DNA of 64,000 nucleotides from Bugula neritina (taxonomy: Eukaryota; Bryozoa; Gymnolaemata; Cheilostomatida; Bugulidae): contig OZ037767.1 in the NCBI GenBank assembly GCA_964035545.1, positions 19,415,628 to 19,479,627 of the forward strand, in the 5' to 3' direction. Below the pieces are notes generated by a model that was not told the origin of the DNA, searched no databases, and saw only the letters and a list, made by a program, of their open reading frames with translations. Positions 24,700 to 32,845 of this stretch are shown piece after piece. How positions within the stretch are numbered: position 1 is the first letter of the stretch; every line of letters starts with the position of its first letter. The position numbers and the translations under genes were made by a program.

Positions 24700-24899
24700 C
24701 CTCAATCTGTGGACAGCAGCTGTTTCGGGGTTTGTCCCCTCATCAGCACAGAACAGAGTACCATGGCCCACACCTTCGCAATAGTAGAAACTTATCTTTC
24801 TACTAAAGCATATTTAAAAGGTGTGTAAACTCAAGCCAGAGAGCTCAAGTGACTCTAGGGGTCACCTAGGAGTCACGAGCCTTGCAAAATGCTAGCAGC
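24700..24899 (-). mobile_element. Retrozyme-like repeat, monomer 1
   Basis: Read on minus, the body (24899 to 24753) starts near AGCTGCTAGCATTTTGCAAG, contains a short palindrome-like TGACTCCTAGGTGACCCCTAGAGTCA and GGTGTGGGCCATGGTACTC, and ends in the ribozyme at 24706-24752. It is nearly identical to 25161-25361 and similar to the plus-strand units at 32294-32850. There is no open frame of note. Small non-coding repeats with a type I hammerhead are the hallmark of metazoan retrozymes, thought to be moved by the machinery of other retroelements. Confidence 0.8.
24706..24752 (-). ncRNA. Hammerhead ribozyme, complete core
   Basis: On the minus strand, stem I is TCTGTG paired with CACAGA, followed by the core CTGATGA, stem II GGGG/CCCC with loop ACAAA, then GAA and stem III ACAG/CTGT with a three-base loop CTG. 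The cleavage triplet is GTC, so the cut falls between 24712 and 24711. All conserved core bases are present. Very short stem III is typical of metazoan type I hammerheads, which often work best as dimers. Stem I can extend past an internal loop through CTC/GAG. Confidence 0.92.
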
Positions 24900-25160
24900 T
24901 ATATATATATATGTGTATATATATATATATGTATATATATATATATATATATATATATATATATATATATATATATATATATATATATATATATATATAT
25001 ATATATAAATATATATATATATGTCTGTGTTGTATGATATATTATAGCACATAACATACATATATATATATATATATATATATATATATATATATATATA
25101 TATATATATATATATATATATATATATATATATATATATATATATATATATATATATATA
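24900..25160. repeat. (TA)n arrays with a 40-bp unique island
   Basis: Two TA arrays (about 24900-25020 and 25060-25160) flank TGTCTGTGTTGTATGATATA and ATTATAGCACATAACATACA. The same island follows the second monomer at 25463-25500, so the monomer and its flank were duplicated together with a period of about 461 bp. Confidence 0.85.
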
Positions 25161-25361
25161 CCTCAATCTGTGGACAGCAGCTGTTTCGGGGTTTGTCCCC
25201 TCATCAGCACAGAACAGAGTACCATGGCCCACACCTTCGCAATAGTAGAAACTTATCTTTCTACTAAAGCATATTTAAAAGGTGTGTAAACTCAAGCCAG
25301 AGAGCTCAAGTGACTCTAGGGGTCACCTAGGAGTCACGAGCCTTGCAAAATGCTAGCAGCT
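25161..25361 (-). mobile_element. Retrozyme-like repeat, monomer 2
   Basis: It is almost base-for-base the same as 24700-24899. The two cleavage sites are 461 bp apart. This points to a recent local duplication, not to two independent insertions. Confidence 0.8.
25167..25213 (-). ncRNA. Hammerhead ribozyme, complete core
   Basis: It is identical in core, stems and loops to the 24706 copy: stem I TCTGTG/CACAGA, CTGATGA, stem II GGGG/CCCC, GAA, stem III ACAG/CTGT, cut after GTC (between 25173 and 25172). Confidence 0.92.
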
Positions 25362-25462
25362 ATATATATATATGTGTATATATATATATGTGTATATATA
25401 TATATATATATATATATATATATATATATATATATATATATATATATATATATATATATATA
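25362..25462. repeat. (TA)n array before copy 2
   Basis: A TA run with GTGTAT interruptions at its start. The unique sequence of duplication copy 2 follows. Confidence 0.9.
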
Positions 25463-26221
25463 TGTCTGTGTTGTATGATATATTATAGCACATAACATAC
25501 ATAAGCACCTGCTTATAAACATACTAAGCAGTAAGGTTGCTGGTAATTATTTACCAGCCTAAAACAACATAAAATTGACACCTGATTATGATATCATATT
25601 AGTTATATTTTAAACAATGAGGAAAGTATTTTGGAAAATTAAACTGCATTTCAACTTAATTGAGTCATATTTTAGCTAGCATGGTAACAGAAGCATATAC
25701 AACATGGCACCAAGTAGTGTGATGAAAGACTTTCGCATAACTTGAATCTGTTCCAATTCAAACTAAATTATAAATACATGGTATTCCCTAGTACTCTAGT
25801 GCTTGGAATTATTACCCAATGTAATCCTCTCAACATGGTACTATATATGAAGCTAGTAATGAAACCTCCACCACACATTGCCTCAAGTTTAAATGCTTTC
25901 ATATTTGCATTGAACTCCCAATCTTATACTTTTTTCTCAAGGAATAAATTTAATCGCTGCATTCCATACTTTTGTGAGTAGATTTTTTATTTGACGCAAG
26001 GATCAATTGGAATAAAACCACAATCATAACAGTTTATGCAAAACGCAACACAGGTTCAATGCATGGGAACACAGTGAATGTATACTATACAATACAGGGG
26101 TTGAAAGCGCAGGTTAAATGAGAATACAACAAGACACATGCCACTTTAAAAGAAACAGAATATTGTAAGGCAAGCAACCTGCATGCGAACACACAAAGTC
26201 AAAGTGCAGACAACTGATTTA

Positions 26222-26565
26222 GCCTAGGGCCACACGGTGCGTATTTTCGCATGCGAAAATTGAAATCACAAGTAGCAAAGGTGTCCACTGTGCGCGTTGA
26301 GAAAACGTTCGCACTTGCGTTGAAAATGCTGAGCGACAAGTGCGAATCGTCTCTGTCATCGTCACCTAATTGGCTGGTAGCTATTCAGCGAGCCCAATTT
26401 CTTTAATTTAGTGCTACATTCCAGTAAATTACGTTTTATTGAAAGCGAGTGCGATTTAAAAATGAAAGCTTTATTTATCACGCATCACTGACGCTACAGT
26501 GGACACCTTTGCTACTTGTGATTTCAATTTTCGCATGCGAAAATACGCACCATGTGGCTCTAGGC
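26222..26565. mobile_element. MITE family A, 344 bp, with its empty site in copy 1
   Basis: The terminal inverted repeats are about 70 bp and near perfect. The outer end is GCCTAGGGCCACACGGTGCG and the arms include TTTTCGCATGCGAAAATTGA and CACAAGTAGCAAAGGTGTCC. No coding capacity. The paralogous position in duplication copy 1 (18720/18721) reads CAACTGATTAAGTTACC without it. A second copy of the same length is at 38196-38539. Confidence 0.92.
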
Positions 26566-27881
26566 TAAGTTACCATGAAGTTCATGATGCCAGCTAGTTT
26601 CAAGCTATAACCGTATATCTATATATAGACTTAGTAAATTTACTAGTTCATTCAACAATATGAAATAAAAACATTTGGCAAGTGTCTAGCTGCAATGATA
26701 AAGCTACTGCAATTATAATACTTCTAGCTACAAAAAAAATATTTTTTTGAAATCAGAAAATTGCAAACTTATCTGCTTATTTTGTTGAAATATACTTTAA
26801 GTTATTGTGCTAGGCAGTTATTCTAAGGCATTAACTCCAATATTTTATTTCACCTGTTTTACAATAGTTATGAATATGTCCACACAGCTGTAGATGTAGA
26901 TGCAGTAGTGTGCACTCTCGCAGTCTAAATAATATACAAAAGTCAAGGCAGACTGGATGGTAAAGTTAAGGCACAGTGCGCAAGTTCAACCAATTTTATT
27001 CTATATATTTTTACATTTGAGTCTCTGTGTTTCAATCTTCAGACTTTATATTCTTTATTTTTAAATTTTTGAAGAATCTTTTTGGGGGAGCTAGCTGTGA
27101 CTGCCCTATATTGCAGTACAAAGTGCAATATTGTGTTACTCTTAGTTGTTGCTAAGATATTTAAAAGTACCACTAAATCTTAGTATGATATACAAATACA
27201 CACAACTTCCTGATTGCTGGCATTCTTCACACATAATAACTAAACTGCAAACTTTCTTGTGAAGTTATAAAAAAACTGCTAAAAATAGAATTTCTATAAC
27301 AAGTTGAACTTTGTCACAAAATGAAGGAAATAGTTCTCGCATTAAAGATCATCATTGCCATATCTCACATAACAAAGTTATATGCAAACATTTCGTCTGG
27401 TTGTGTAAATCTGAACTGGTTTTATCAAGGAATGCAATATAATTTAACTTAATTAATAATCATGATGCAACATATCCTGATAATCCACACAAACTGTGAA
27501 ATGATTGCTGGTTTATGATCCAATGTGTGTTGACACACTATATATAGGCTAAAAATAGACTCCCTGATTGTGATCAAAGGCAAACATTTCCTAATATTTC
27601 TCTCATTTGTCATTATATAAAAATTATTATTTAAACATTATTTTCCCCCAATATTTAATTAAAAAACCACTTAGTTTGACATGTTTCCTTTTACATTGCT
27701 TTGTTTGAATGCAAAGACTAAACAAGAAACTGTTTTTAGTAGATAGTAATTGTATTTTTAAATGGTTTATGTAACTATTTTAGCAATGGAATTTTAGAGA
27801 TGAAACACTGGTCACACTGCCTTAAAATTCTCAGAGTTAGATTGTGATTAAAAAATTATTAGTCTTGTTTAAATGCCTAAA

Positions 27882-28065
27882 AACTCACTTAAGTTCATAG
27901 TCATTATCCATGTGAGAACCCCCGATGGAAAGGGTTTTTATTAATCGGGTTAAGAACTTACTCAGATGTGACACAGGAGCAATTATATGACTGAATGCTC
28001 TTCCATACCTCACCAATGGCCTTTACAGGAGTTCGAACCCATGACTCCGTGCTTGCTTAGTCATA
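27882..28065 (-). mobile_element. tRNA-derived SINE (family 2)
   Basis: Full-order copy on the minus strand with tail, body (GGAGCAATTATATGACTGAATG), CACCAATGGCCT and the reversed box B (GAGTTCGAACCCATGACTCC). The head continues to about 28065. Confidence 0.7.
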
Positions 28066-28506
28066 TCATTGCATAATCTTTCTCTAATGGTTTAATTGGT
28101 TTCAATATCTAATTTCAATGAAATCATAACCTTTGATCTGTCGCCATACCAACATGATTGACTGGTAGCTAGCTGTTACACACTTTTCATTAAGTTAGAC
28201 CTATAATATCATCTAATTGCTAGAGTTGGTGGAGATTTAGACTTATGTCTGATTATATGAGTATATTTGGATTGATTAAATGCTTTAGTACCTCTCTGTA
28301 GTGAAAAGAAAGTCATTTTATATGTCTTTTAAAGTCTAGTGATATTTAAAATGCAATACATTTTTTCTAGTAGAAAATGGGCCAGCAATCTGGCATATTA
28401 AGTAATTAAAACCAGCAGATTCTGGGAAGCAATATAATGTATGGCAAACAAAGAGATATATTTCTCTGCAAGACTCAGAGTTAACTTGAGTTATGAAGTA
28501 CACATA

Positions 28507-32206: not shown

Positions 32207-32275
32207 TATATATATATATATATATATATATATATATATATATATATATATATATATATATATATATATATATAT
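32207..32275. repeat. (TA)n array at the right edge of copy 2
   Basis: A TA run that replaces the 5' part of the first hammerhead of the plus-strand array. Confidence 0.9.
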
Positions 32276-32278
32276 CCG

Positions 32279-32299
32279 GAAACAGCTGCTGTCCACAGA
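32279..32299 (+). ncRNA. Hammerhead ribozyme, 3' half
   Basis: GAAACAGCTGCTGTC|CACAGA is intact, with the cut after 32293. The CTGATGA and stem II part is missing and replaced by (TA)n. On its own it cannot cleave in cis. Confidence 0.8.
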
Positions 32300-32303
32300 T
32301 TGA

Positions 32304-32421
32304 GATATATATATATATATATATATATATATATAGATATATATATATATATATATATATATATATATATATATATATATATATATATATATATATATAT
32401 ATATATATATATATATATATA
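32304..32421. repeat. (TA)n inside the first plus-strand retrozyme unit
   Basis: It starts right after the stem I strand (CACAGATTGAGATATATA). In the next unit the same place reads GAATGAGATATTATGCTC with no TA expansion, so the array grew from an ATAT seed in the element. Confidence 0.85.
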
Positions 32422-32544
32422 TGATTCCGAGGTGACCCTTTGAGTCACTTGAGCACTCTGGCTTGGGTTTACACACTTTTTAAATATGCTTTAGTAAAAC
32501 TATAAGTTTCTACTATTGCGAAGGTGTGGGCCATGGTACTCTGT

Positions 32545-32591
32545 TCTGTGCTGATGAGGGGACAAACCCCGAAACAGCTGCTGTCCACAGA
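32545..32591 (+). ncRNA. Hammerhead ribozyme, complete core
   Basis: Stem I is TCTGTG (32545-32550) with CACAGA (32586-32591). CTGATGA is 32551-32557; stem II is GGGG 32558-32561 with CCCC 32567-32570 and loop ACAAA; GAA is 32571-32573; stem III is ACAG 32574-32577 with CTGT 32581-32584 and loop CTG; C17 is 32585, so cleavage falls between 32585 and 32586. All core residues of the hammerhead fold are present. Confidence 0.94.
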
Positions 32592-32819
32592 ATGAGATAT
32601 TATGCTCTCATTTAATGCTCAGCAATGACATTAAAATATGATTGAGCACTCTCACCATAGTCACAAACTCAAGCTGCTAGCATTTAGCTATGCTCGTGAC
32701 TCTTAGGTGACCCCTAGAGTCAATTAGGCACTCTGGCTTGGGTTTACACACCTTTTAAATATGCTTTAGTAAAACTATAAGCTTCTACTATTGCGAAAGT
32801 GTGGGCCATAGTACTCTGT

Positions 32820-32845
32820 TCTGTGCTGATGAGGGGATAAACCCT
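32820..32845 (+). ncRNA. Hammerhead ribozyme, 5' half
   Basis: TCTGTG, CTGATGA and GGGG with loop ATAAA then CCCT are present. The GAAAC, stem III and cleavage triplet are gone, replaced by ATATAT. Confidence 0.8.

Follow-up and report, generated by a model that had tools for sequence, protein, structure and literature searches.

Retrozyme-like hammerhead repeats of Bugula neritina share a 3′ end at TA repeats and may be copied from RNA circles

The window analysed here is a stretch of 64,000 nucleotides from the bryozoan Bugula neritina (NCBI GenBank assembly GCA_964035545.1, 215.8 Mb in 295 contigs; contig OZ037767.1, positions 19,415,628 to 19,479,627, written C3:19415628-19479627 in the notation used here), and its subject is a family of non-coding, retrozyme-like repeats that carry a type I hammerhead ribozyme and end on TA repeats. 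The hammerhead core CTGATGAG...GAAAC was found three times in the window, with 0.03 occurrences expected by chance, and a descriptor that covers all three stems recovered the identical sites (its strict version matched 3 times, and never in 100 dinucleotide shuffles). Stem I is formed by TCTGTG/CACAGA (9 contiguous pairs at 32551 if G-U is counted), stem II by GGGG/CCCC with the loop ACAAA, and stem III by ACAG/CTGT, i.e. 4 pairs with the loop CTG. As sequence motifs, the three hammerheads are thereby confirmed.

A sequence-only reading, made by a model without database searches, had described these three sites with the whole core and the same stems, had claimed additional partial copies and had seen no reading frame in the repeat body. 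The core pattern and the three-stem descriptor agreed with it on the sites, partial copies were found (C, E, E2 and the second unit of copy D), and the open frames lying over the copies in the window were TA-repeat read-through. Other points of its description had to be amended. Stem III, called very short, has 4 pairs, and in place of a repeat body of 150–250 nt the full unit measures 276 nt in the window (32551 to 32827) and 271–277 nt genome-wide. Tandem arrangement holds for copy D, which is a true tandem of about 1.5 units, and fails for copies A and B, which belong to a duplication of 461 bp that includes the TA repeat, so that their units do not abut. The TA repeats at the copies were new relative to that reading: a (TA)n tract adjoins each copy in the window on at least one side, yet TA runs of at least 20 bp make up 2.3% of the window. 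The far end of copy E runs into an imperfect TA-rich stretch, and the 3′ end of copy D differs from the common 3′ end described below. All coordinates are collected in Table 1.

Table 1. Retrozyme-like copies, hammerheads and adjoining TA repeats, in positions of the window
Feature	Position	Strand	Remark
Copy A	24697..24900	-	about 0.75 unit, 5′-truncated; 3′ end CACAGATTGAGG, then TA repeat
Copy B	25158..25361	-	second half of 461-bp tandem duplication
Copy C	32276..32308	+	final ~30 nt of the unit, truncated within stem II; ends at the common 3′ end; flanked by TA repeats
Copy D	32424..32846	+	about 1.5 laps with 276-nt period; one whole hammerhead, second cut inside stem II
Copy E	46368..46398	-	hammerhead fragment; first C of stem II replaced by T
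Copy E2	46813..46853	+	5′-truncated unit end, common 3′ end; orientation opposite to copy E
Hammerhead core	24746-24722	-	core pattern search
Hammerhead core	25207-25183	-	core pattern search
Hammerhead core	32551-32575	+	core pattern search
Hammerhead, copy A	24706..24752	-	predicted cut 24712/24711, inferred from the core (after GTC)
Hammerhead, copy B	25167..25213	-	predicted cut 25173/25172
Hammerhead, copy D	32545..32591	+	predicted cut 32585/32586
TA repeat, 3′ side of copy A	24555..24699	.	
TA repeat, 3′ side of copy B	25060..25160	.	
TA repeat, 5′ side of copy C	32207..32275	.	
TA repeat between copies C and D	32305..32422	.	one interruption
TA-rich repeat between copies E and E2	46398..46812	.	

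The family extends far beyond the window. Searched genome-wide, the exact core gave 126 copies (control 0) and the looser core CTGATGAGN{4,20}CGAAAC gave 429 matches, against 14 for the reversed control. Among 100 listed loose-core places, about 94 were assigned by eye to the retrozyme-like family, whose two main forms close stem II with CCCC or TCCC, and a few stem II variants among the listed matches do break pairs. A 276-nt probe returned 132 genome matches (40 scored of 572 candidates), the best 30 of which span 271–277 bases. The unit is thus a non-coding sequence of about 272–276 nt, repeated in up to 4 tandem laps in the sampled loci, with a G + C content of 0.42 for the 276-nt period of the window. 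The prediction that this genome carries a retrozyme family was supported by these counts, and the presence of a retrozyme-like family throughout the genome is, on sequence criteria, almost certain.

For the analysis of insertion junctions, 60 loci were taken (the first 30 of the 126 core places and the best 30 of the 132 unit matches), 10 overlapping ones were dropped, and the 50 kept loci comprised 56 blocks, two of which are the window copies C and D (locus L128). Circle position 1 was set at the first base after the predicted cleavage bond. In this numbering, 52/56 blocks stop at position 14–17, some 15 nt downstream of where cleavage is predicted, and this common 3′ end was likewise met in 24 of the 27 blocks obtained from whole-unit similarity alone. 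A TA repeat adjoins the 3′ end in 52/56 blocks, the 5′ end in 44 and both ends in 43, whereas such a repeat was present in 111/11,746 background windows of the same loci and in 63/1777 windows of the 64-kb stretch. At 407 genome sites of the unit end CTGTCCACAGANTGAGNTAT, 262 were followed by a perfect TA repeat, 87 by the next unit and 58 by neither. The outer flanks were mostly unlike between loci: 19 flank pairs matched, 16 of them involving five loci with a second block in the flank, and the remaining 3 matched on one side only. Multiple insertions in one TA tract, in either orientation, were seen in L137 and L150 and in the window (C with D, E with E2), as expected for a target that reads alike on both strands. 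Taken together, these junctions make TA-primed copying of the unit very probable.

Contrary to the largely uniform 3′ ends, the 5′ ends of the blocks are spread round the whole circle, with an excess at whole laps: 12/56 blocks begin at positions 6–15, where 2.06 were expected (p 7.5e-7). More than 1.05 laps are present in 32/56 blocks, 13 reach 1.99 laps, and the longest has 4.0. Outside the whole-lap group, the truncation points showed no enrichment of TAT/ATA in the unit (4/44, p 0.52). Genome-wide counts of 20-base words with one mismatch rose from 250 (positions 31–50) over 399 (positions 155–174) to 561 (3′ end), with 0, 2 and 0 matches for the reversed words; a gradient towards the 3′ end is that left by 5′ truncation, though part of it may be due to divergence of the words. 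With the common 3′ end some 15 nt beyond the cleavage bond, the copied RNA would have been joined across this bond, either as a religated circle or as an uncut multimer. The whole-lap excess and the likeness of the units within most arrays favour a circle, which we consider the probable template in preference to a linear RNA.

Comparison of 55 near-full units from 36 loci gave a median difference of 0.7% within loci (26 pairs, mean 1.4%, two of the pairs comparing separate insertions in L150) and of 3.7% between loci (1459 pairs). Three identical units were present in each of L134 and L139; the L134 units equal a unit elsewhere, and those of L139 are one base from their nearest. As identical units at distinct loci imply recent spread, the family is, judged from unit divergence, young and recently spread. 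Of 79 sampled hammerheads (21 distinct), 78 had fully paired stems and the stem changes were of the kind that keeps G-U pairs; this sample is biased, 30 loci having been picked by the exact core, the pattern of which fixes part of the hammerhead, and copy D is counted twice in it (window and L128).

No Penelope-type coding region, i.e. reverse transcriptase with GIY-YIG nuclease, is contained in the ~272-nt unit, and a scan of the window for motifs of both gave one chance-like match at 857, outside the copies. The units end on the TA repeat, and no other terminal repeat was seen; no dedicated search for a primer binding site or polypurine tract was made. We read the copies as insertions of a retroelement akin to the metazoan retrozymes, one that is non-coding and non-autonomous and would be moved by an enzyme from elsewhere.

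A candidate for this enzyme lies in the same TA tracts. Directly after the TA repeat of locus L155, a 5′-truncated copy of another element was found, the first frame of which would encode a reverse transcriptase end and the second a nuclease part. The first frame had 413 relatives at E 0.001 or better (best 2.2e-88); PF26215 is annotated on about two thirds of 120 listed relatives, the few named ones being corals and anemones. From its sequence and the Penelope link of PF26215, we take this copy to be Penelope-like. Pfam models gave no significant domain on the L155 copy, the second frame reaching 14.2 bits with GIY-YIG (cut-off 22.6) and 15.3 with Sulfotransfer_2. The element terminates in TATAGAAAC (TACATATA in L147), after which TA sets in; this 3′ end was seen again in L101, L136 and L147, so that a TA repeat was present at all 4 distinct loci that showed an end. 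L134 has only a 32-base match. A hammerhead core is kept in 3/4 of the Penelope-like copies, 105–117 nt before the 3′ end (L101 is without GAAA), with 3–4 pairs in stem I, 4–5 in stem II and 3–5 in stem III. Penelope-like elements with minimal hammerheads have reportedly been described before, by Cervera and de la Pena in 2014 and Lunse in 2017; a Penelope-like copy with such a hammerhead shares the B. neritina genome and its TA tracts with the retrozyme-like family, the latter differing from it in its non-coding unit, its lack of detectable shared sequence and its 4-pair stem III. No Penelope-like copy was found in the 64-kb window, blastn of the L155 copy against it giving no match. Absence of Penelope elements from the genome had been considered and was dropped: a genome search with the Pfam GIY-YIG model returned one match from 4 candidates, which in our reading looks like the host nuclease SLX1, and the search is unable to show absence because the L155 nuclease part itself scores only 14.2 bits with this model. 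On the junction evidence, the Penelope-like element is a rather likely mobiliser of the retrozyme.

The cycle that we infer from these data would start with transcription of a retrozyme copy, the RNA of which would be cut after GTC by the type I hammerhead into monomers of about 272 nt that would be closed into circles by ligation. Where a TA repeat is nicked, a DNA end would then anneal to AUAU at circle positions 12–15, just past the ligated bond, and reverse transcription would follow the circle for anything from a fraction of a lap to four laps before the product is joined to the TA repeat at its 5′ side. The enzyme would most likely come from the Penelope-like element of the same genome. 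For the whole cycle, i.e. a ribozyme retroelement with RNA circles and TA-primed copying by a Penelope-like enzyme, we estimate a probability of roughly 55%. Chances are about even that the junctions, moreover, preserve fossil traces of reverse transcription from circles that the ribozyme had made; in this reading a Penelope-type enzyme would nick TA microsatellites and a stop would be favoured after whole laps, the primer-bound start point being met again.

Several observations weigh against this cycle. Most loci came into the sample through their hammerhead core or their likeness to the whole unit, and Penelope-like copies were met only beside retrozymes. At their 5′ side, 12/56 blocks are without TA, and 4/56 blocks end elsewhere than at the common position (the first block of L108 at 13, L136 at 247 and L144 at 11, all without TA, and copy D of L128 at 256, with TA), while L103 has the common end (position 14) and no TA. 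Some arrays are less uniform, with 12 differences in L104, 8 in L145, 7 in L142 and up to 6 in L154. In the folding model the isolated hammerhead favours another fold (-19.8 vs -14.5 kcal/mol), and one 276-nt period folded as a circle has a z of -2.9, yet its pairing is no higher than that of shuffles (0.587 vs 0.583), whereas published retrozyme circles are said to be highly self-paired. For the linear body of copy A, a z of -3.7 was obtained.

Part of the junction pattern could also come from linear RNA that reads through the unit. In such a route, resembling that of a short interspersed nuclear element, uncleaved linear transcripts would run into the TA flank, their (UA)n tail would pair with TA targets, and the 3′ end would be inherited from the source; the blocks with TA on both sides are common enough to be potential sources, and a whole-lap source would yield whole-lap copies. 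The route needs a working-looking ribozyme that fails to cut, and outer flanks are not shared between loci apart from the second family blocks and one-sided matches given above, which makes it an unlikely explanation, if one to be kept in view. Rather unlikely, too, is a circular or otherwise joined RNA template copied by an enzyme from a long interspersed nuclear element (LINE) or another element in place of the Penelope-like one. Reverse-transcriptase genes are plentiful in the genome (150 scored of 2124 candidates) and include young LINE-like copies, but of the four LINE-like families compared one finishes in CAAA repeats, two break off with no TA tract behind them and in the fourth the pair of copies diverges too early for an end to be placed, so that 0/3 families with comparable 3′ ends continue into a TA tract. 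The family ending in CAAA repeats (L092-L097) is itself young, with pairs 99.9–100% identical over 1.8–3 kb.

The unit might also be a short derivative of the Penelope-like element, a pseudo-long-terminal-repeat piece and no independent retrozyme, given that both carry type I hammerheads and both end at a TA repeat. This is very improbable: beyond the lack of a blastn match between the L155 copy and the window, the hammerheads are unlike in all stems and the cut lies 15 nt from the 3′ end in the unit and 105–117 nt from it in the Penelope-like copies. Least probable of all, we would place spread as a tandem satellite by unequal crossing-over and without reverse transcription; tandem units are present and copies A and B do look like a plain 461-bp tandem duplication, whereas hundreds of dispersed places with a single 3′ end, varied 5′ ends and unlike outer flanks, at most 4 laps in the sample, and identical units at distinct loci are at odds with it.

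A covariance-model hit to an Rfam hammerhead family at the three sites had been named by the sequence-only reading as a check, and its lack as a refutation. Formally, the refuting outcome was obtained, in that no family reached its Rfam gathering cut-off in either strand of the 64 kb. At lax thresholds, the region 24500–33000 gave 58 rows with no hammerhead, largely from models matching the TA repeat. For a 91-base piece at copy D, the best scores were 15.2 bits with RAGATH-1-hammerhead (cut-off 56.3) and 14.9 with Hammerhead_3 (48.5); the weak RAGATH-1 alignment sets the core and stems as proposed, the Hammerhead_3 alignment does not. Since the core and its three helices are present, along with hundreds of copies scattered over the genome, we read this failure as a gap in the models: at their cut-offs, the Rfam hammerhead models missed all three window copies of the family.

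Metazoan non-LTR (long terminal repeat) retrozymes are described as multicopy, non-coding tandem repeats of 150–450 bp with a type I hammerhead, no LTR and GC <50% (Cervera and de la Pena 2020, PMC7229834). The family described here is like them in its type I hammerhead with the whole catalytic core, in its period of 271–277 nt, its many copies and the share of sampled blocks with more than 1.05 laps, and in being non-coding at the G + C content given above. It is unlike them in its junctions: the available text of PMC7229834 reports target site duplications, of >4 bp when present, and describes no TA-repeat target or common 3′ junction, and duplications would here be indiscernible inside the TA repeat. 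Insertion templated by circular RNA through a non-LTR or Penelope enzyme has been proposed for metazoan retrozymes (PMC7229834), and so has movement of animal retrozymes via RNA circles copied by Penelope enzymes (PMC7229834, PMC7761336), with no evidence from insertion junctions in the text consulted. Plant LTR retrozymes (PMC4918200) are likewise non-autonomous, carry hammerheads and are inferred to spread through RNA circles, but have type III hammerheads, LTRs, a primer binding site and 4-bp duplications, where the present family has type I hammerheads, ends on a TA repeat and showed no LTR. A further likeness, by description and not by junctions, is that to CarSV DNA of carnation, which consists of DNA versions of a small circular RNA within genome sequence that resembles microsatellites (PMC9695139); CarSV is a plant viroid-like RNA and is also integrated in a pararetrovirus. 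A literature search over titles, with subscription papers outside it, listed no title on retrozyme insertion at TA repeats. New here are the common 3′ end past the cleavage site, the TA-repeat target and the lap counts.

Exact words of the family were found in neither the genome_contigs nor the viral_contigs collection. A general hammerhead pattern was tried and gave 89 viral stretches, 33 of which held hammerhead folds by descriptor, none of them with the family's helices by eye; the viral contigs L014, L042 and L062 carry 2–3 hammerheads per stretch, with a 12-pair stem III and a sequence unrelated to the family.

Within the window, 17907–24699 and 25394–32375 form a tandem segmental duplication of ~7.5 kb, the pieces of which are 90–94% identical, with copies A/B and C/D at the ends of its two halves in opposite orientations. 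The end of copy D folds back in stem II (32822–32850), and E and E2 form an inverted pair around a 415-bp TA tract (46368–46853); such inversions may be promoted by the palindromic TA repeat. A weak match to the retrozyme profile at 8075–7966 on the minus strand (E 2e-7, 25.4 bits) is possibly a decayed copy. A 355-bp repeat in two copies (26216–26570 and 38190–38544; 92% identical, inverted ends of ~70 bp) resembles a small DNA transposon, and NHL-repeat exons at 49857–51792 may belong to a TRIM/NHL-type gene. One relative was found for a protein of the window. In the assembly, several different COX1 genes were present on contigs C295, C17, C196, C65 and C6; that of C295 looks mitochondrial and that of C6 like a nuclear copy, and those of the remaining contigs may belong to further organisms whose DNA is in the assembly. 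With TGA read as Trp and AGA at expected Ser positions, we read the COX1 code as the invertebrate mitochondrial one.

A young family whose copies share a 3′ end and a target, and whose laps can be counted, would provide insertion-junction evidence for circle-based movement, with a candidate helper in the same TA tracts. If the cycle proposed here is true, the retrozyme would live as a site-specific parasite on a Penelope element that targets TA, the circular template, a step proposed long ago, could be put to a direct test, and microsatellites would be tied to the spread of a retroelement.

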